Part shown: one piece after another, positions 56,390 to 64,000 of the stretch
How the letters are laid out: every line of letters starts with the position of its first letter
Position numbering within the stretch: position 1 is the first letter of the stretch
Assembly (NCBI GenBank): GCA_025355585.1
Contig: JANXZJ010000193.1
Coordinates: 62,001 to 126,000 of the forward strand
From: Mariniphaga sp.
Lineage (GTDB): Bacteria > Bacteroidota > Bacteroidia > Bacteroidales > Prolixibacteraceae
Direction of reading: 5' to 3'
Length of the DNA stretch: 64,000 nucleotides
Program-made: the position numbers and the translations under genes
Notes under the pieces: model-generated
Databases searched by the model: none
What the model was told of the DNA's origin: nothing
What the model saw: only the letters and a program-made list of their open reading frames with translations

Positions 56390-56467
56390 ATGGGTGGATT
56401 TAAATTGGAATTTCAAAAGTTATGTTTACCAAGGCTATTTTTAAATAACCAAAAATGTAACGGATAA
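56390..56467 (+). CDS. 25-codon leader ORF coupled to the cytochrome b gene
   Basis: ATG at 56390 follows a strong Shine-Dalgarno sequence (AGAGGAG, 56375-56381, spacing eight). The peptide begins MGGFKLEFQK, contains two Cys, and ends with TAA whose last A is the first base of the next ATG (TAATG). Such overlap lets ribosomes reinitiate on the cytochrome b gene, which has no Shine-Dalgarno of its own. Whether the peptide has a role is unknown. Confidence 0.5.
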   Translation: MGGFKLEFQKLCLPRLFLNNQKCNG

Positions 56468-57252
56468 TGACAAAGGTAGTTCACCAGTTGATTCGGTCGT
56501 CTTATGTGGCAGTGGTTTTAATGACTTTAGTTTTGCTGGGTTATTTTGGTTTTTCCTTTTACAACCTTCCTATCGAAGAACGATATTTTCATTCAGACTA
56601 TGCAATATTTAAACCCAGCGGTTTATTGGGACATGGTTTAGGCATTATTGGAACATTGCTTATACTGATTGGCGTTTTCTCGTATATGGCACGAAAAAGA
56701 TTTCATATCTTTTCGCGTATCGGGGTATTAAAATACTGGCTTGAATTCCATATTTTTCTTTGTTCATTAGGACCTGTTTTGATACTCTATCACACCTCCT
56801 TTAAATTTGGTGGAATTGTATCTGTTAGTTTCTGGAGTCTGGTTGCGGTTGTGGCAAGTGGTATTATAGGTCGTTTTATTTATTTGCAAATACCTCGCTC
56901 TATCGAAGGAAGAGAATTAAGTTGGCTGGAAGTGCAGAATATGAGAAATGAGCTTAATAATGAGTTAAAGACGAAATTCAATGTCGATATTTCCGAAATC
57001 AAAACGGGAAAATCTTTTGAGGTAGTTTCGGAATTAAGAACTTTAAAACTCTCTGCATCTGACTTTAGGAAAGTTAAACAATTAATAGTCCGTCAGAGAT
57101 TGCTGACGCGAAGAATGGCAAGACTCGATATGATGCAAAATATTTTCAAGTACTGGCATGTTGCTCACTTGCCTTTTGCATTAATCATGTTGATTGTAAT
57201 GATAATACATGTTGCTGTAGTTCTCACCTTTGGTTATAAATGGATATTTTGA
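56467..57252 (+). CDS. Di-haem cytochrome b-like membrane protein
   Basis: 261 residues with about five membrane helices. Two helices each carry a His pair 14 apart: H95 and H109 (EFHIF to LYHTS), and H234 and H248 (VAHLP to IIHVA). This is the H-x13-H arrangement of di-haem b cytochromes, two haems stacked across the inner membrane. Further His at 56 and 231. Between the third and last helices is a cytoplasmic helical loop of about 90 residues. It does not match a named family that I recognise with certainty. It could take electrons from quinol or from the flavoprotein encoded next and hand them to periplasmic cytochromes. Confidence 0.72.
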   Translation: MTKVVHQLIRSSYVAVVLMTLVLLGYFGFSFYNLPIEERYFHSDYAIFKPSGLLGHGLGIIGTLLILIGVFSYMARKRFHIFSRIGVLKYWLEFHIFLCSLGPVLILYHTSFKFGGIVSVSFWSLVAVVASGIIGRFIYLQIPRSIEGRELSWLEVQNMRNELNNELKTKFNVDISEIKTGKSFEVVSELRTLKLSASDFRKVKQLIVRQRLLTRRMARLDMMQNIFKYWHVAHLPFALIMLIVMIIHVAVVLTFGYKWIF

Positions 57253-57256
57253 TATT

Positions 57257-58591
57257 ATGGATACAGTAATAGAAGAGGTTGTTATTTATGGTGTTACAGC
57301 TATTCTCATCCTGGTTGTATTGTACATCTATATTCGAAAGCAAAAGCTGGAATCGCGTGAAGTCAGTGCGAAAATAGAGCAGGCAAAAGAGGATGGCGTA
57401 TACGAACCAGTCTCTTTATACCCGGTTGTTGATCAACGAAGGTGCATCAAAAGCGGTGCATGCATAAAGGCTTGTCCTGAAGATAATATTTTAGGTATAA
57501 GGAACGGCAAAGCGACGATAATTAACGCATCGCATTGTATTGGTCATGGCGCATGTTTTCGGGCCTGTCCTGTAGAGGCAATTTCGTTATATATCGGTAC
57601 CGAAAAAAGGGGCGTCGATTTGCCGCATGTAAACCCTAATTTTGAGACGAATGTTCCAGGCATTTTTATTGCTGGTGAATTAGGAGGAATGGGACTAATA
57701 AAAAATGCAGTCACCCAGGGGCGAGAAGCGGTCGAAAATATTGCAAAATCTATTAATAAAGACTCTCAGGCTTCTTACGATTTAATTGTTGTAGGCTCAG
57801 GTCCTGCTGGTATTTCGGCTACTCTTTCAGCCAAGGAATTAAATTTAAGAGTATTAACATTGGAGCAAGATACTTTGGGGGGTACTGTTTACACTTTTCC
57901 GCGAGCCAAAATTGTGATGACCTCTTCTATGGATTTGCCATTGTACGGTAAGGTTAATTTTAAAGAAACGTCAAAGTCGCAATTACTTGAATTGTGGAAT
58001 TCGGTATTGGAAAAAAATAGTATTACTATCCAGGAAAATTCGAAAGTTGAATCAATCAAACGTGAAGGCGATGTTTATCGGGTAGACACCTTGAATGGAA
58101 AAAGTTACACTACTAAAAGTGTACTACTCGCAATTGGCAGGCGTGGAACTCCCCGCAAGCTGAATGTACCTGGTGAAGATACTGAAAAAGTAGCTTATCG
58201 GCTTTTGGAACCGGAGTTAATCAAAAATAAAAAAATCATTGTAGTGGGCGGCGGCGATTCGGCAATAGAGTCCGCTTTGCTTCTTGCAGATCAGAATAAG
58301 GTGACCATCTCTTATCGTAGCAATGCTTTTAGCCGAATCAAGCCTAAAAATGCTGAAAATATAAATATAGCCGTCAAAAGCGGATTGATTGATTTAAAGC
58401 TTAATTCGAATATTGTCTCAATAGAAACTGATTCAATACATTACACTGAAAATGATTCCAAAGAGGTATTAAAAATGGCGAATGATTTTGTATTCATATT
58501 TGCCGGTGGTGAACTTCCAACTCAATTCCTTAGAAAAATAGGAATTGAAATTACCACCAAATATGGTGAAGCTATATTGAAGCACAGATAA
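57257..58591 (+). CDS. Membrane-anchored ferredoxin / FAD-dependent NAD(P) oxidoreductase
   Basis: 444 residues from ATG 57257 (an upstream in-frame start at 57230 lies inside the cytochrome b gene). Layout: one membrane helix (about 9-26), a ferredoxin-like domain (55-110), then a thioredoxin-reductase-like FAD/NAD(P) domain with VVGSGPAGIS (about 177-186) and VVGGGDSAIESA (about 330). No redox CxxC, as in YpdA-type enzymes. Both iron-sulfur motifs lack the second Cys: C63-x2-S66-x2-C69-x3-C73 and C94-x2-H97-x2-C100-x3-C104. Probably moves electrons between NAD(P)H or ferredoxin and the membrane cytochrome. Confidence 0.85.
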   Translation: MDTVIEEVVIYGVTAILILVVLYIYIRKQKLESREVSAKIEQAKEDGVYEPVSLYPVVDQRRCIKSGACIKACPEDNILGIRNGKATIINASHCIGHGACFRACPVEAISLYIGTEKRGVDLPHVNPNFETNVPGIFIAGELGGMGLIKNAVTQGREAVENIAKSINKDSQASYDLIVVGSGPAGISATLSAKELNLRVLTLEQDTLGGTVYTFPRAKIVMTSSMDLPLYGKVNFKETSKSQLLELWNSVLEKNSITIQENSKVESIKREGDVYRVDTLNGKSYTTKSVLLAIGRRGTPRKLNVPGEDTEKVAYRLLEPELIKNKKIIVVGGGDSAIESALLLADQNKVTISYRSNAFSRIKPKNAENINIAVKSGLIDLKLNSNIVSIETDSIHYTENDSKEVLKMANDFVFIFAGGELPTQFLRKIGIEITTKYGEAILKHR

Positions 58592-58651
58592 ATCCGTTGT
58601 CATTTAGTTTAAAGTTTTCGTTGCATATTTTATTGATTTAAAGCATTTTTG

Positions 58652-60265
58652 ATGAAATTGGTCCAATTTATTATATTATTTTCAATATTCCTTGTTGGAG
58701 GATACGATGTATCTGCTCAGATTTCACCTGGTGAGCTGAGTAAAGTACATGCCGATTTGGAAGGTGTAAGCAATTGCACCAAATGCCACGATGTTGGAAA
58801 CAAAGTAACCAGAGAGAAGTGTCTGGATTGCCACAAAGAGATCAATTTGCTTATTAAGGCTAAAGAAGGATTTCATGCATCAGCTGAAGTCAATGGAAAA
58901 GATTGCTTCGTCTGTCATAATGATCACCATGGACGTAATTTTCAGATAGTAAAGTTCGATAAGACATCATTTAATCATGCTAAAACTGGTTTCGAGCTTA
59001 AAGGAGCACATGCACGCGAAGATTGTAAAGCATGTAATTGTAAATCTTGCCATAAACCTGCCTTTATTAAAGATCCGAAATTAAAGAAAAATACATCGAC
59101 TTATCTGGGATTAAAACAGGAATGCCTTTCATGTCACGACGATTTTCACAAAGGGAAAATGGCACCAAATTGTAATACCTGTCACGGATTTGATTCTTTT
59201 AAAAACGCAACTGGATTTGATCACAATACAACAAAATTCCCATTAGTGGGAAAACACAAGAATTTGGATTGTAAGAAATGCCACAAACCGGAAATTGTGG
59301 ATGGTAAAACAGTTCAAAAATTCGCAGGAACTGAATTCACTAACTGTACCAGTTGTCACAAAGATGCGCATCAAAACAAATTTGGGCAAAATTGTAAACA
59401 GTGTCATTCAGAAGAATCATTTCATGCCATCAAAGGAACAGGCAATTTCGATCACGATAAAACAGATTTTAAACTTGTTGGTAAGCACCAGTTAGTTGCC
59501 TGTAAATTATGTCACAAAACCAGTCTTACAGCTCCGATTAAATTTGGTAAATGCACAGACTGTCATGCCGACTATCATAAGAAGGAATTTGTCAAGGATG
59601 GAATTGCCCCTGATTGCAATGAGTGCCACGATAATAAAGGATTTGCAGAGAGCTCATTCACTGTCGAAAAGCATAATTTTTCGAAATTCAAGCTCGAAGG
59701 TGCCCATTTGGCTACACCTTGTACTGCCTGTCATAAAAAACAGGAAAATTGGACATTTAGAAAAATTGGGAGCATTTGTGTAGACTGTCATAAGAACGAG
59801 CATAAAGGATTTATTCAGGAAAAATATTATCAAAAAGAAAATTGTACTGAATGTCACATCGTTAATGATTGGAGGACGATTAAATTTGACCATTCCAAAA
59901 CGAAATTTAAAATAGAAGGTGTACATGCGCAACAAACTTGCGCTGCCTGTCACTATGCTAAAGATAAGGCTGGTCAACGGATTCAAAAATTTGCCGAGCT
60001 TATAGTCGACTGTTCTGGCTGTCACAATAATTCCCACGCTGGTCAGTTTGATGTAAAAGGAAAAACAGATTGTACGAAATGTCATGGATTTGAAGATTGG
60101 AAAAAGTCCACATTTGATCATAATTCTTCAAGGTTTAAACTTGAAGGAGCTCATTTAACGGTTAGTTGTGAAAAGTGCCACAAACAGGAGGCAAATGCAA
60201 ATGCAAACGGAAAGTTTATTCTATACAAAAATAACAAGATACTATGTTCAAATTGCCATCAATAA
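58652..60265 (+). CDS. Exported multihaem cytochrome c, 20 CXXCH motifs
   Basis: 537 residues from ATG 58652, with a signal peptide ending DVSAQ. I count 20 CXXCH motifs, about one haem per 27 residues, arranged in recurring units: F-H-x-x-T-x-F-K-L-x-G-x-H, then C-x-x-CH, then a second CXXCH about 20-30 residues later. Many additional His (e.g. KDAH, ADYHK) would serve as distal ligands. Periplasmic or outer-membrane-associated. At 59024-59053 a five-residue unit is doubled (CKACN next to CKSCH), the first copy having Asn in place of the haem-ligand His. The stop overlaps the next gene by 22 bases. Confidence 0.9.
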   Translation: MKLVQFIILFSIFLVGGYDVSAQISPGELSKVHADLEGVSNCTKCHDVGNKVTREKCLDCHKEINLLIKAKEGFHASAEVNGKDCFVCHNDHHGRNFQIVKFDKTSFNHAKTGFELKGAHAREDCKACNCKSCHKPAFIKDPKLKKNTSTYLGLKQECLSCHDDFHKGKMAPNCNTCHGFDSFKNATGFDHNTTKFPLVGKHKNLDCKKCHKPEIVDGKTVQKFAGTEFTNCTSCHKDAHQNKFGQNCKQCHSEESFHAIKGTGNFDHDKTDFKLVGKHQLVACKLCHKTSLTAPIKFGKCTDCHADYHKKEFVKDGIAPDCNECHDNKGFAESSFTVEKHNFSKFKLEGAHLATPCTACHKKQENWTFRKIGSICVDCHKNEHKGFIQEKYYQKENCTECHIVNDWRTIKFDHSKTKFKIEGVHAQQTCAACHYAKDKAGQRIQKFAELIVDCSGCHNNSHAGQFDVKGKTDCTKCHGFEDWKKSTFDHNSSRFKLEGAHLTVSCEKCHKQEANANANGKFILYKNNKILCSNCHQ

Positions 60266-62580
60266 TCATAGCCTTATTGCTGTCGTTTAATGCAATAGCT
60301 GCTAAATCTCCGCATGGTGCTAATTTTAGTATAAAGTGTGATGTTTGCCATAATCCCGAAGGTTGGACATTTAAAACCACAGGTAATACGTTTGATCATT
60401 CCATAACCACCTTTCCGTTAGTTGGACAGCACAAGGCCATTGATTGTAAAAAATGTCATGCTGATTTGGTGTTCTCAAGTACAAAAACTACATGTATCTC
60501 TTGCCATAAAGACATGCATCAGCAGACCGTAGGACAAGATTGCGAAAGATGTCATACGCCAAGAAGCTGGATAGTGTCGAACATTACTGAAATTCACAGG
60601 CAAAGCAGATTTCCTTTAAATGGACAACATGCCCAGATTGATTGTTCCCAATGTCACAAATCGGCTTCTCTTTTGAGGTTTGATCCCATGGGAGCGGAAT
60701 GCCTTGATTGTCACTCTGCAACTTTTAACGCAACTACAAATCCTTCTCATATTGCATCTAAATTCCCGAAAGATTGCTTCCTCTGCCATAATGAAAAAGG
60801 GTGGCAACCTGCAAAGTTTAATCACAACACGAGCACATCCTTCCCTTTAACCGGCGGTCATGTCGGTATTGATTGCGCCAGTTGCCATGCCAAAGGATAT
60901 GCCGGAACTGCCACTGACTGCGCCAGTTGTCACATAAAGAATTATAACACCACTACTGCTCCTGCGCACGCAACTGCCAAATTCACGACTGATTGTATTA
61001 CCTGTCATACTACTGCATCATGGACGTCAGCTACATTTAATCACAATACCAGTACAACTTTTCCATTAACAGGAGGGCATATCGGTGTTTCATGCATCAG
61101 TTGCCATTCCAAAGGTTACGCAGGAACCTCCACAGATTGTGTAAGTTGTCATTTAGCAAATTACAATGCAACGAAAGATCCTGCTCATGCGACTGCCAAA
61201 TTTCCAACTGACTGCAAAACCTGTCATACTTCAATTGCATGGACGCCTTCGACTTTTAATCACAATACAAGCACAACCTTTCCTTTAGCCGGTGCACATA
61301 TCGGTGTTTCATGTATTAGTTGTCATGCCAAGGGTTATGTTGGAACCTCCACCGATTGCGTGAGTTGTCATTTAACGAACTACAATGCAACGACGAATCC
61401 ATCGCATGTGACAGCAAAATACTCCACAGATTGCAAAACTTGTCACTCTTCATCAGCCTGGGTTCCGTCAACATTTAATCACAACACCAGTACCGCGTTT
61501 CCTTTAACTGGTCGTCACATAGGTGTAAGTTGCATTAGTTGTCATTCAGCAGGTTATGTTGGAACCTCAGCCGAATGCGTGAGTTGTCATTTGGCTAATT
61601 ATAACGCGACGACAAATCCATCGCATGTGACTGCGAAATACTCAACAGATTGCAAAACATGTCATACGTCTGTAGGTTGGGTACCTTCGACATTTAATCA
61701 CAATACGAGCACGGCCTTCCCATTAACCGGCAGTCACGTTGGTGTTGCCTGCATTAGTTGCCACTCCAAGGGTTATACCGGAACTTCTGCGCTTTGTGAG
61801 AGTTGCCATTTAACGAATTACAATGCAACGACAAATCCGGCTCATGTTGCTGCTAAGTTTCCTACAGACTGTAAAACATGTCACACTTCAACAGCCTGGG
61901 CGCCATCGACATTTAATCACAATACAAGCACGACTTTTCCATTGGCAGGTGCACATATCGGGGTATCTTGCATCAGTTGTCATTCAAAGGGCTACGTAGG
62001 AACTTTAACTGATTGTGCCAGTTGTCATTTAGCAAATTACAATGCGACAACAAATCCGGCACATGCCACTGCAAAATTCTCAACAGACTGCAAGACCTGT
62101 CATACGGTAACGGCTTGGCAACCTGCAACTTTTAATCACACCACGGGCACCACCTTTCCTATTGTCGGCGCTCATATTGGTGTCACTTGCATCAGTTGTC
62201 ACTCAAAAGGTTATGTTGGAATTTCCACTGATTGTTACAGTTGTCATGTGACGAATTACAATGCAACAACGAATCCGGTTCATGCAGCAGCGAAGTTCCC
62301 GACTACTTGTCTTTCGTGTCATACGCAAACCGGATGGACACCTTCTACTTACAATCACGATACGCAATATTTCCCGATTAACAGCGGAAGGCATAAAGGC
62401 GCATGGACTTTGTGTACTGAATGTCATACTACTGCAACAAATTATGCAGTTTTCAATTGCCTGCTTTGCCACGCTCATAGTAATAAAGCGTCTGTTGATT
62501 CACAGCATAATGGCCGAAGCGGATATGTATACAATAGCACCAATTGTTTGTCTTGCCATCCCAGGGGCACTTCAAATTAA
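60244..62580 (+). CDS. Exported multihaem cytochrome c, 31 CXXCH motifs
   Basis: 778 residues with a signal peptide ending AIAAK. I count 31 CXXCH motifs. The first ~190 residues carry seven motifs in units like those of the preceding cytochrome; residues about 192-702 are seven 73-residue repeats, each with three CXXCH; a short tail carries three more. The beginning overlaps the end of the previous gene by 22 bases, so the two cytochromes are likely made together. Probably a long haem wire in the periplasm or on the surface. No known catalytic site was seen. Confidence 0.9.
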   Translation: MFKLPSIIIALLLSFNAIAAKSPHGANFSIKCDVCHNPEGWTFKTTGNTFDHSITTFPLVGQHKAIDCKKCHADLVFSSTKTTCISCHKDMHQQTVGQDCERCHTPRSWIVSNITEIHRQSRFPLNGQHAQIDCSQCHKSASLLRFDPMGAECLDCHSATFNATTNPSHIASKFPKDCFLCHNEKGWQPAKFNHNTSTSFPLTGGHVGIDCASCHAKGYAGTATDCASCHIKNYNTTTAPAHATAKFTTDCITCHTTASWTSATFNHNTSTTFPLTGGHIGVSCISCHSKGYAGTSTDCVSCHLANYNATKDPAHATAKFPTDCKTCHTSIAWTPSTFNHNTSTTFPLAGAHIGVSCISCHAKGYVGTSTDCVSCHLTNYNATTNPSHVTAKYSTDCKTCHSSSAWVPSTFNHNTSTAFPLTGRHIGVSCISCHSAGYVGTSAECVSCHLANYNATTNPSHVTAKYSTDCKTCHTSVGWVPSTFNHNTSTAFPLTGSHVGVACISCHSKGYTGTSALCESCHLTNYNATTNPAHVAAKFPTDCKTCHTSTAWAPSTFNHNTSTTFPLAGAHIGVSCISCHSKGYVGTLTDCASCHLANYNATTNPAHATAKFSTDCKTCHTVTAWQPATFNHTTGTTFPIVGAHIGVTCISCHSKGYVGISTDCYSCHVTNYNATTNPVHAAAKFPTTCLSCHTQTGWTPSTYNHDTQYFPINSGRHKGAWTLCTECHTTATNYAVFNCLLCHAHSNKASVDSQHNGRSGYVYNSTNCLSCHPRGTSN
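60817..62349 (+). repeat. Seven exact-length 219-base coding repeats
   Basis: The landmark (T/A)TTTAATCAC starts at 60817, 61036, 61255, 61474, 61693, 61912 and 62131, and a decayed copy at 62350, each 219 bases apart. A unit reads FNHNTST-FPL-G-HIGV, CISCHSKGY-GTSTDC, VSCHL-NYNAT-NP-H, AKF-TDCKTCHTS-AW.PST. Confidence 0.95.
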
Positions 62581-62616
62581 TACGATATGGTTCTATTTGT
62601 TCCGAACATTCAAAAA

Positions 62617-62639
62617 GATGAATCGAACTTCGATTCATC
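62617..62639. terminator. Perfect hairpin between the 31-haem cytochrome and the barrel gene
   Basis: GATGAATCGA (62617-62626) and TCGATTCATC (62630-62639) with a three-base loop. No T-run follows, so it may be an mRNA processing or stabilising stem, or a weak terminator that lowers expression of the next gene. Confidence 0.5.
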
Positions 62640-62689
62640 GGTGCGAATTTCCTCGTATTTGGGGAAACATTTAAATAAATTATTTTAGA

Positions 62690-64000
62690 ATGAAGCAATT
62701 ATTATTCCTTATACTCTTTTATTGCTTAAGCTTGAACATCTTTGGCCAAACCACTGATGTTATTTTGAAAGGGTCAATATCATATATAACTTCTCAAAAT
62801 ATATATGTGAAGTTTGAAAATACGGAAGGAATTCACATGGGCGATACGCTATTTATCGCACGTAACAATGTGTTTATTCCTGCTTTAATCGTAAATAATC
62901 TTTCAACGATTTCCTGCGTAGGGATTCCGGTTGGACAGGTTACTCTTTCAATATCGAACCCTATATTTGGGAAAATAAAAGTAGAAAAGAGGCAACAAGA
63001 TTCGATATCTAAAGAAACGAAAGCACCTGTTTCTTTAAACGCGAATGATCAGGCAATTAAATTACTTTATCAGGATAATAAAGCCAAAGAATTAAAACCA
63101 CGCATAGATGGACGGGTTGCACTCTCTTCGTATGCAACGCTATCGAATTCTGCATCCGATATTAGATACAGGTATAATTTGTCGTTAAACACAAAGCATG
63201 GCGGCGATTCCGGACTTTCTACCGAAACCTATGTTTCATTTACTCACAAATCAAATGAATTGAGCCTTGTGGGTCAGGATATAAACAAGTATTTGAAAAT
63301 ATACACGCTGGCAGTGACATACGATTTTAACAAATCAACCAATATCTCACTGGGACGAAAAATAAATTTGAACATGGCAAACATAGGTGCCGTTGATGGG
63401 CTTCAATTTCAGACAGTCCACCGAAACTTCACTTATGGGGCTGTAGTAGGTTCACGGCCTGATTATTATAACTATAGCTTCAATTCAAATTTAATGCAAT
63501 TTGGTGTTTTTACAGGTCATAGTATTCAAAATGAAAATGGGAATATGCAAACTTCACTTGCAGTCTTCGACCAGATGAACGATTTTAAAACTGATCGCAG
63601 GTTTGCCTATCTTCAACACTGTAATTCCTTATTGAAGAAATTGGATCTTTTTTGTTCTTTTGAATTTGATTTCTACACCCTCGATACTCTTAAGCAGCCT
63701 AAAAACACTTTTGATCTGACAAGCGTTTACGCATCAATAAGATACAAACCATGGAAAAACCTTTCCTTAATGGTTTCCTATGATGCCAGAAAAAACGTCT
63801 ATTACTATGAGACTTTTAAAAATCAGATAGACAGCATTATAGATAGAGAGACCAGGCAAGGTTTACGATTTAATTTCAACTATCGCCCGGTTAAATACCT
63901 CAGTTGGGGAGGATCAGCCGGATACCGGTTTCAAAAATCGGATCCTGTACCAAGCATTAATGCGAATAGTTACTTAAACTACAGTCTTATACCATTGATT
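62690..64000 (+). CDS. Putative outer-membrane beta-barrel protein, cut by the window edge
   Basis: At least 437 residues, frame open to the end. Signal peptide MKQLLFLILFYCLSLNIFGQ. Residues about 22-105 form a small beta-rich domain (GDTLFIARNNVFIPALIV), then after a polar linker (about 106-145) a long series of amphipathic strands with aromatic ends (IRYRYNLSLNT, STETYVSFTH, KYLKIYTLAVTYDF, STNISLGRKI, NYSFNSNLMQFGVF, SVYASIRYKP, GLRFNFNYRP). This suggests an outer-membrane barrel. Its place directly after two multihaem cytochromes suggests a porin sheath for electron transfer, as MtrB in Shewanella; sequence kinship to MtrB is not evident to me. Confidence 0.72.
   Translation, partial: MKQLLFLILFYCLSLNIFGQTTDVILKGSISYITSQNIYVKFENTEGIHMGDTLFIARNNVFIPALIVNNLSTISCVGIPVGQVTLSISNPIFGKIKVEKRQQDSISKETKAPVSLNANDQAIKLLYQDNKAKELKPRIDGRVALSSYATLSNSASDIRYRYNLSLNTKHGGDSGLSTETYVSFTHKSNELSLVGQDINKYLKIYTLAVTYDFNKSTNISLGRKINLNMANIGAVDGLQFQTVHRNFTYGAVVGSRPDYYNYSFNSNLMQFGVFTGHSIQNENGNMQTSLAVFDQMNDFKTDRRFAYLQHCNSLLKKLDLFCSFEFDFYTLDTLKQPKNTFDLTSVYASIRYKPWKNLSLMVSYDARKNVYYYETFKNQIDSIIDRETRQGLRFNFNYRPVKYLSWGGSAGYRFQKSDPVPSINANSYLNYSLIPLI

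Follow-up and report, generated by a model that had tools for sequence, protein, structure and literature searches.

A PCC3-like gene set of Bacteroidota as a candidate NAD(P)H-coupled extracellular electron conduit

The gene set and its products

The window analysed here is a stretch of 64,000 nucleotides from an uncultured Mariniphaga sp. (G000:C8:62001-126000), which belongs to a draft genome of 4.09 Mb in 197 contigs with a completeness of 84.3%. Its right end (56467-64000) carries five tightly spaced plus-strand genes, named here CYB, FSO, C20, C31 and BAR, whose products are a putative di-haem-b membrane protein, an iron-sulfur (Fe-S) oxidoreductase with a domain for flavin adenine dinucleotide (FAD) and nicotinamide adenine dinucleotide (phosphate) (NAD(P)), two exported multihaem cytochromes and a predicted outer-membrane beta-barrel. 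A sequence-only reading had proposed for them the anatomy of a trans-envelope electron conduit, NAD(P)H module included, and both the gene set and the linkage of FSO to it agree with this proposal. Its account of one-strand, tightly spaced genes, of a di-haem cytochrome b-like protein, of a membrane-anchored Fe-S/FAD NAD(P) oxidoreductase and of exported cytochromes with 20 and 31 CXXCH motifs also holds, both counts being exact. A profile scan for CYB through 84,980 species genomes returned 437 stretches encoding a relative, the closest named loci coming from one Mariniphaga and one Prolixibacteraceae metagenome-assembled genome. The best 80 loci were kept and, after removing duplicates, 113 distinct CYB homologues (from 129), 101 of FSO (from 118) and 67 fixed cytochromes (from 74) were compared.

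CYB (56467..57252, plus strand) contains two H-x13-H helices, and its conserved elements are W91-x3-H95-x13-H109, S131-G-x2-G135 and W230-x3-H234-x13-H248. The predicted structure, with a mean local confidence (predicted local distance difference test, pLDDT) of 84.6, has a five-helix inner-membrane layout carrying these motifs, and among the 113 distinct homologues both WX3HX13H motifs are present in 105 and SGXXG in all. The interval between helices 4 and 5 comprises 84 residues, 17 of them lysine or arginine, suggesting that this loop is cytoplasmic. Taking into account this charge and the spacing of the motifs, CYB would hold two haems b, one between H95 and H234 at the inner side of the membrane and the other between H109 and H248 at the outer side. 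No Pfam family, FRD (PF01794) included, was matched by CYB above its cut-off, and DUF4549 alone appeared, below its own. COX3 was also considered for CYB, its best match against the sequences of solved structures (E 0.025) being taken as chance. In another locus (L028, 1390-2843), a CYB-like protein of 189 residues is followed by a 10-haem cytochrome, a pair that is possibly a minimal relative of the conduit.

FSO (57257..58591, plus strand) matches Pyr_redox_3 (2.5e-42) and Fer4_10 (2e-10) in Pfam, behind a hydrophobic N-terminal stretch which is followed by RKQK, so that, by the positive-inside rule, the remainder of the protein would be cytoplasmic. Thus, it combines an N-terminal membrane anchor, two Fe-S motifs and an FAD/NAD(P) domain whose closest solved relatives are YpdA, thioredoxin reductases and TrxR-type ferredoxin-NADP reductases. 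Eight cysteines had been ascribed to the two Fe-S motifs, a number that has to be corrected to six; these are all the cysteines of the protein (at 63-104), every one lies in the motifs and, since none is found outside them, the FSO of the window cannot be a dithiol reductase. The second ligand places are occupied by serine in the first motif and histidine in the second. This histidine is found in 101/101 distinct homologues and in 15/15 from distant lineages; the corresponding place of the first motif holds serine or threonine in 99/101 distinct homologues, but cysteine in 13/15 of the distant ones. Against NCBIfam, the best matches of FSO, C20 and C31 were all below cut-off.

C20 (58649..60265, plus strand), the candidate periplasm-spanning partner, contains 20 CXXCH motifs and 42 histidines, and C31 (60244..62580, plus strand), the candidate outer wire, 31 motifs and 63 histidines. 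In 500 shuffles, carried out on C20 alone, the mean number of motifs was 0.27 and the maximum 3. Both proteins have signal peptides, judged by eye, and match cytochrome c7/c3 models in Pfam, and neither has a match among solved-structure sequences. C31 is built of three-haem repeats of about 73 residues, and a tandem DNA array with a period of 219 bp and 5.7 copies lies inside its gene (61033..62285, plus strand).

BAR (62690..64000, plus strand) is represented in the window by residues 1-437 of 535, and the remainder was completed from the contig (stretch L002, up to 2297). The sequence-only reading had asked whether the last gene encodes a barrel, and the structure prediction (pLDDT 80.6, predicted template modelling score 0.62) gives 22 strands, counted from residue 138, behind a small N-terminal beta domain, with residues 98-132 at low confidence. 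With an E limit of 0.001, 318 solved chains matched in the structure search, and all of the first ten in the list were outer-membrane barrels; the best match on a second look was a siderophore receptor (Z 18.1, root-mean-square deviation 4.6, 344 aligned). At E 0.001 no Pfam family was matched by BAR, MtrB_PioB (PF11854), TonB plug and receptor families included, and MtrB_PioB had no match in the window's own genome. The MtrB barrel has 26 strands; the computed C-alpha radius, with a tilt of 45 degrees assumed, is about 22 Å for 22 strands vs about 26 Å for 26. In the same genome, a second barrel gene (539 residues) lies in L190 (G000:C115, 6023-8407), preceded at the contig end by a truncated multihaem gene with 9 CXXCH visible, forming a second wire-barrel pair.

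It had been supposed that the right half of the operon lay past the window and might hold a further outer cytochrome. Only the last 98 residues of BAR (297 nt including the stop) lie beyond position 64000, and because the next gene, of the URO-D family (Pfam), is on the minus strand, the operon has no hidden right half. A further outer cytochrome is thus unsupported, C31 itself being the best candidate for that role. A downstream reductase for a soluble substrate, which had been named as a point to look for, was not found: neither the operon nor the position directly after BAR contains a catalytic reductase gene of the nitrite or sulfite type.

Conservation and gene order in Bacteroidota

Where sequence suffices, the usual order in the 80 loci is CYB-FSO-cytochrome-cytochrome-BAR, with an extra cytochrome in some. 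FSO lies directly 3' of CYB in 77/77 loci with at least 300 nt remaining (3 of the 80 fall below that). Distant lineages present other arrangements, either CYB followed by a protein of about 200 residues and then FSO, or CYB, a 20-haem cytochrome, the wire, BAR and FSO at the end. All 19 distant-lineage genomes picked contain FSO, 18 of them on the CYB contig, and in distant loci with short flanks it adjoins CYB in 10/29, being found elsewhere after the protein of about 200 residues or at the operon end. In this comparison, the CYB of L208 is hidden beneath a longer reading frame that overlaps it. In the distant loci L213, L214, L111 and L132, the protein of about 200 residues, which has an N-terminal hydrophobic stretch, separates CYB from FSO or from the first cytochrome.

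More remote relatives of CYB (hhalign E 9.2e-17) are found on three proteobacterial plasmids, from Qipengyuania, Methylophaga and Rhizorhabdus, where they are flanked on one side by an oxidoreductase whose annotation names FAD or 2Fe-2S binding (Pfam was run on that of Qipengyuania alone) and on the other by a 7-haem cytochrome. This oxidoreductase is of a different type from FSO, and the reading of CYB as fed from NAD(P)H gains support because these relatives, too, adjoin flavin/Fe-S oxidoreductases. The three-gene sets (L139, 9827-11692; L140, 9836-11778; L205, 5366-9627) have a DUF1622 gene nearby, and a heavy-metal-responsive regulator lies near L139 and L205.

These observations bear on a scheme in which the cytochromes receive electrons that CYB takes from menaquinol, FSO having a regulatory role or serving as a side entry point. 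Although He et al. (PMC5566968), in the text available, proposed the membrane protein of the related PCC3 type as a quinone-active cytochrome b, and the PCC3 clusters described there name no dehydrogenase, FSO accompanies the conduit wherever it was looked for in enough sequence (77/77; 19/19), and even the proteobacterial CYB relatives adjoin a flavin/Fe-S oxidoreductase, of a different type. Export driven by quinol is accordingly held to be improbable.

BAR is present in 40/80 loci, and in 37 of the remaining 40 the sequence ends first, often inside a repetitive gene. A whole-genome search for 39 of the 40 BAR-less loci (L069 shares its genome with L067) found BAR in 33/39, four of them as fragments. 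That the families would be linked in other Bacteroidota had been another expectation of the sequence-only reading, and it is borne out by 395 genomes drawn over the phylum: CYB occurs in 44 of them (40 strongly), BAR in 37 and both in 35, within 15 kb in 31 of these 35. The count of co-occurrence used 40/44 CYB genomes, the weak partial matches in G157, G170, G217 and G406 (E 2e-6 to 5e-11) being left out, and the two genomes with BAR and no counted CYB have BAR matches of E 5e-4 and 8e-4.

The most recurrent extra gene in the 80 neighbourhoods belongs to a family with a median of 1,077 residues, located 5' of CYB in 16 loci, whose representative (the one checked by Pfam) is a ResB-CcsA cytochrome c maturase. 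The set is also carried by cultured strains. In Emticicia oligotrophica DSM 17448 it is located on plasmid pEMTOL02, behind a CcsA gene, with cytochromes of 23 and 40 haems, and Prolixibacter bellariivorans ATCC BAA-1284 carries it in L104. Searching plasmids for BAR retrieved Emticicia only; for FSO, at E 1e-30, it retrieved Emticicia and a partial match in Pseudoalteromonas amid glycosyltransferase genes.

Three-haem steps in the cytochromes

The two cytochromes differ in how their length varies. The first, in 66 complete cases, has 20 haems in 40, 23 in 24, 16 in one and 13 in one. The second was studied through all 46 complete multihaem genes found directly before BAR, with the window's own C31 excluded, and with six truncated loci swapped for longer stretches of the same contigs in the haem counts. 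These wires contain from 12 to 88 haems, and in 40/46 the number is 1 modulo 3 (binomial P 7e-14, with no correction for kinship), the rest being five 12-haem proteins and that of L077, where the 23-haem type occupies the place. Length grows by 24.9 residues per haem (r 0.9997), so that three haems make up a module of about 75 residues. Distant lineages contributed 16 regions, where small proteins with 9 and 10 haems occur as well; in 15 of these regions the largest second cytochrome, with 10 to 43 haems, follows 1 modulo 3, and in the remaining one it has 38. Close relatives differ by whole modules, as in pairs with 49 vs 34 haems (CYB identity 95.5%) and 19 vs 16 (92.4%). It has to be taken into account that these counts come mostly from draft assemblies in which many contigs end within the repeat gene, and that collapsed repeats could lower them, but by whole modules.

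The four largest complete wire genes encode 85, 85, 88 and 88 haems in 2,140-2,220 residues. L171, L172, L173, L174, L176 and L180 contain complete predicted wires with 82 to 88 CXXCH (2,048-2,220 residues), placing them among the most haem-rich single proteins reported, as far as the available text of those reports extends. When histidines outside CXXCH are counted, each of the 46 wires has 1.0 or more per haem and the 67 distinct fixed cytochromes have 1.09 or more, a surplus that would fit bis-histidine relay haems.

A first cytochrome of fixed length beside an elastic second one suggests that the former spans a constant distance, the periplasm, and that the latter lies outside. In the opposite arrangement, the wire would be periplasmic, acting as an electron store (capacitor) or feeding soluble reductases, and the barrel would have another role. 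A store of this kind has been proposed for the giant Saprospiraceae cytochromes, in the accessible part of their description (PMC11495043), and for PCC3-like proteins of Burkholderiales (PMC7399161), and no lipobox is seen by eye in C20 or C31. Nevertheless, BAR is nearly confined to CYB genomes (35/37, the other two at the weak E values given above), and the commonest extra neighbour is the ResB-CcsA maturase (16 of 80 loci), not a reductase, with the rarer clusters not all identified to family. Such a store is considered very improbable.

Proposed route of electrons

Taking these data together, we lean, with somewhat better than even confidence, towards reading the set as an extracellular electron conduit of Bacteroidota that is similar to PCC3 and coupled to NAD(P)H through a dehydrogenase of its own. 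Thus, NADPH or NADH would reduce the FAD of FSO in the cytoplasm, and electrons would travel over both Fe-S clusters, reach the inner haem b of CYB, cross the membrane to the outer haem b and continue to C20 in the periplasm. FSO and CYB would in this way resemble a split NADPH oxidase or ferric reductase, with a cytochrome as the outer acceptor. A cytochrome held in the 22-strand barrel would carry the electrons through the outer membrane, and the many-haem wire C31 would finally deliver the electrons to an extracellular acceptor, which could be a mineral, humic matter, an electrode or a partner cell.

Direction, surface position and function are inferred, and the conduit probably runs outward. 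Two points of established energetics favour outward flow: electrons move with the field when they exit the negative interior, and NAD(P)H is a strong donor. The same conduit could also run inward, with Fe(II), Fe(0), Mn(II) or a partner cell as the donor to the wire and the quinone pool, by way of CYB, or NAD(P)+, by way of FSO, as the destination. This direction would suit the fact that PCC3, in the literature accessible, is discussed chiefly for Fe(II)-oxidising bacteria, and there are iron corroders among Prolixibacter strains, though their study, in its available part, names nitrite as the causal factor. However, by established energetics Fe(II) is too weak a donor to reduce NAD(P)+ unless energy is supplied, and still the conduit retains an NAD(P) oxidoreductase; P. 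bellariivorans, a carrier of the set, is described in the accessible text as neither respiring nor reducing nitrate. Inward flow is therefore thought unlikely.

Several observations weigh against the proposed outward, NAD(P)H-coupled conduit. Structure comparison of CYB gave a best Foldseek E of 1.7 and a best VIA-align Z of 7.5, to unrelated helical proteins; cytochrome b6 (Z 5.9) and b561 (Z 5.5) both fell within the warning range of the latter tool and are not taken as proof. The wire is not known to have an export route, and no lipobox was seen by eye in it or in C20. BAR does not lie near CYB in L038, L039 and L041 despite enough sequence, and is missing from 6/39 of the draft genomes searched. 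In the proteobacterial plasmid relatives of CYB one WX3HX13H is retained, the other motif being HX13H, and SGXXG is missing from one of them. Likeness to PCC3 was judged from published descriptions of its proteins, and quinol, which He et al. assumed for PCC3 in the text available (PMC5566968), could be the donor here too.

A bolder proposal, advanced tentatively as one that falls a little short of an even chance, is that electron export from NAD(P)H over both membranes, free of the quinone pool, is widespread in Bacteroidota, a split NADPH-oxidase-like unit feeding a fixed periplasmic cytochrome and a ruler-like cable that grows from 10 to at least 88 haems by three-haem modules.

Neighbouring genes and other haem proteins

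Upstream of CYB, the window contains genes for a NamZ muramidase, a transglutaminase and an NlpC/P60 protein (Pfam), which look unrelated to the conduit. In the window's genome, the sole Cytochrom_C_asm match is on another contig, and the one match of the Cytochrome_C554 family is a 9-haem gene elsewhere. Multihaem genes with 9 and 4 CXXCH, in L202 (G000:C166, 757-4063) and L200 (G000:C21, 8231-11180), adjoin genes whose products resemble, by eye, exported sugar dehydrogenases or oxidoreductases; these are possible further, non-cytoplasmic electron donors.

Significance

CYB is found in about one in ten of the Bacteroidota genomes drawn (40/395), mostly together with the barrel. If the proposal is correct, electron export in Bacteroidota would be tied directly to the NAD(P)H pool, providing a redox valve without the need for a respiratory chain, and the giant unexplained cytochromes of Saprospiraceae would gain a partner set. 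The natural series of lengths, in which a fixed unit recurs to give 10 to 88 haems, supplies protein wires with which the length dependence of conduction could be studied, and the cultured carriers E. oligotrophica DSM 17448 and P. bellariivorans ATCC BAA-1284 make the reading testable.

Comparison with known systems

The closest described system is PCC3, which, in the available text of He et al. 2017 (PMC5566968), is found in Alpha-, Beta- and Gammaproteobacteria. Its inner-membrane protein has five helices, SGXXG on helix 4 and WX3HX13H on helices 3 and 5, a signature shared by PCC3 and PCC4; its cytochromes have median haem numbers of 21 for the periplasmic and 34 for the extracellular one, the latter reaching 85 at most, its porins up to 42 predicted regions, and quinone is assumed as its inner partner. 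Later work, as far as accessible, treats PCC3 as four genes of untested function (PMC10734462, PMC12016527, PMC12442390), the order in Slit_1446-1449 being inner-membrane protein, periplasmic cytochrome, extracellular cytochrome and porin (PMC12016527). By these descriptions, CYB has the five helices, SGXXG and two WX3HX13H, C20 is near the cytochrome of about 21 haems and is accompanied by one larger cytochrome (C31), and a barrel is present in the same gene order, with FSO inserted here. In contrast, FSO belongs to the Bacteroidota set and no dehydrogenase is named in the PCC3 clusters as described; BAR has 22 predicted strands vs up to 42 predicted regions in the porins; the wires follow 1 modulo 3, whereas the outer cytochromes of Gallionellaceae PCC3 have, in the text available, 10, 11, 12, 13, 14, 15, 16, 18 and other numbers of haems; and the host is a member of Bacteroidota. 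An NAD(P)H/Fe-S partner, a conserved histidine in place of a cluster cysteine and three-haem steps are not mentioned in the accessible descriptions of PCC3. The sequence-only reading had called the route sequence-distinct, which stands for BAR, devoid of a Pfam family at E 0.001, and not for CYB and the gene order, which match the PCC3 type of 2017 as far as described.

MtrCAB, MtoAB and PioAB share with this set an exported multihaem cytochrome and an outer-membrane barrel, and there are weak, sub-cut-off matches to DmsE/MtrA-type models; they differ in that BAR has no MtrB_PioB match, in the far higher number of haems here and in the inner-membrane donor. NADPH oxidases and ferric reductases, to which He et al. 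likened PCC3 in the text available (PMC5566968), resemble it in the two H-x13-H helices for two haems b and the cytoplasmic FAD-NAD(P)H unit. However, CYB has no FRD match in Pfam, the flavoprotein is separate, of thioredoxin-reductase type and with Fe-S, and the acceptor would be a cytochrome. The FAD/NAD(P) domain of FSO is like that of YpdA bacillithiol-disulfide reductase, thioredoxin reductase and TrxR-type ferredoxin-NADP reductase, but FSO adds a membrane anchor and an Fe-S domain and, unlike YpdA and thioredoxin reductase, the window's copy is devoid of redox-active cysteines in the FAD/NAD(P) part. BAR is similar in its barrel part to TonB-dependent receptors (the Z of 18.1 mentioned above), yet has no Pfam plug or receptor match, its residues 98-132 being those of low confidence.

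In activated sludge, Saprospiraceae are the main source of the proteins with most haem motifs, and Bacteroidota cytochromes with more than 100 have been reported in the accessible text (PMC11495043). These giant proteins have very many CXXCH, as do the Saprospiraceae loci found here (up to 88), and they are probably the same wires, although that text gives no operon, partner proteins or repeat rule. A seven-gene cytochrome-barrel cluster has been described, in the available part of the paper, in anode-enriched Bacteroidetes (PMC8258643). In the open-licence literature, as far as accessible and with most subscription papers outside its scope, no description was found of the five-gene set, of FSO in such a cluster or of the three-haem rule. 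In sum, the gene set is real, conserved and best filed as PCC3-like, and what is new in it, as far as seen, is an obligate-looking NAD(P)H/Fe-S module with a conserved histidine, a barrel of no Pfam family, breadth across Bacteroidota and a quantised cable.

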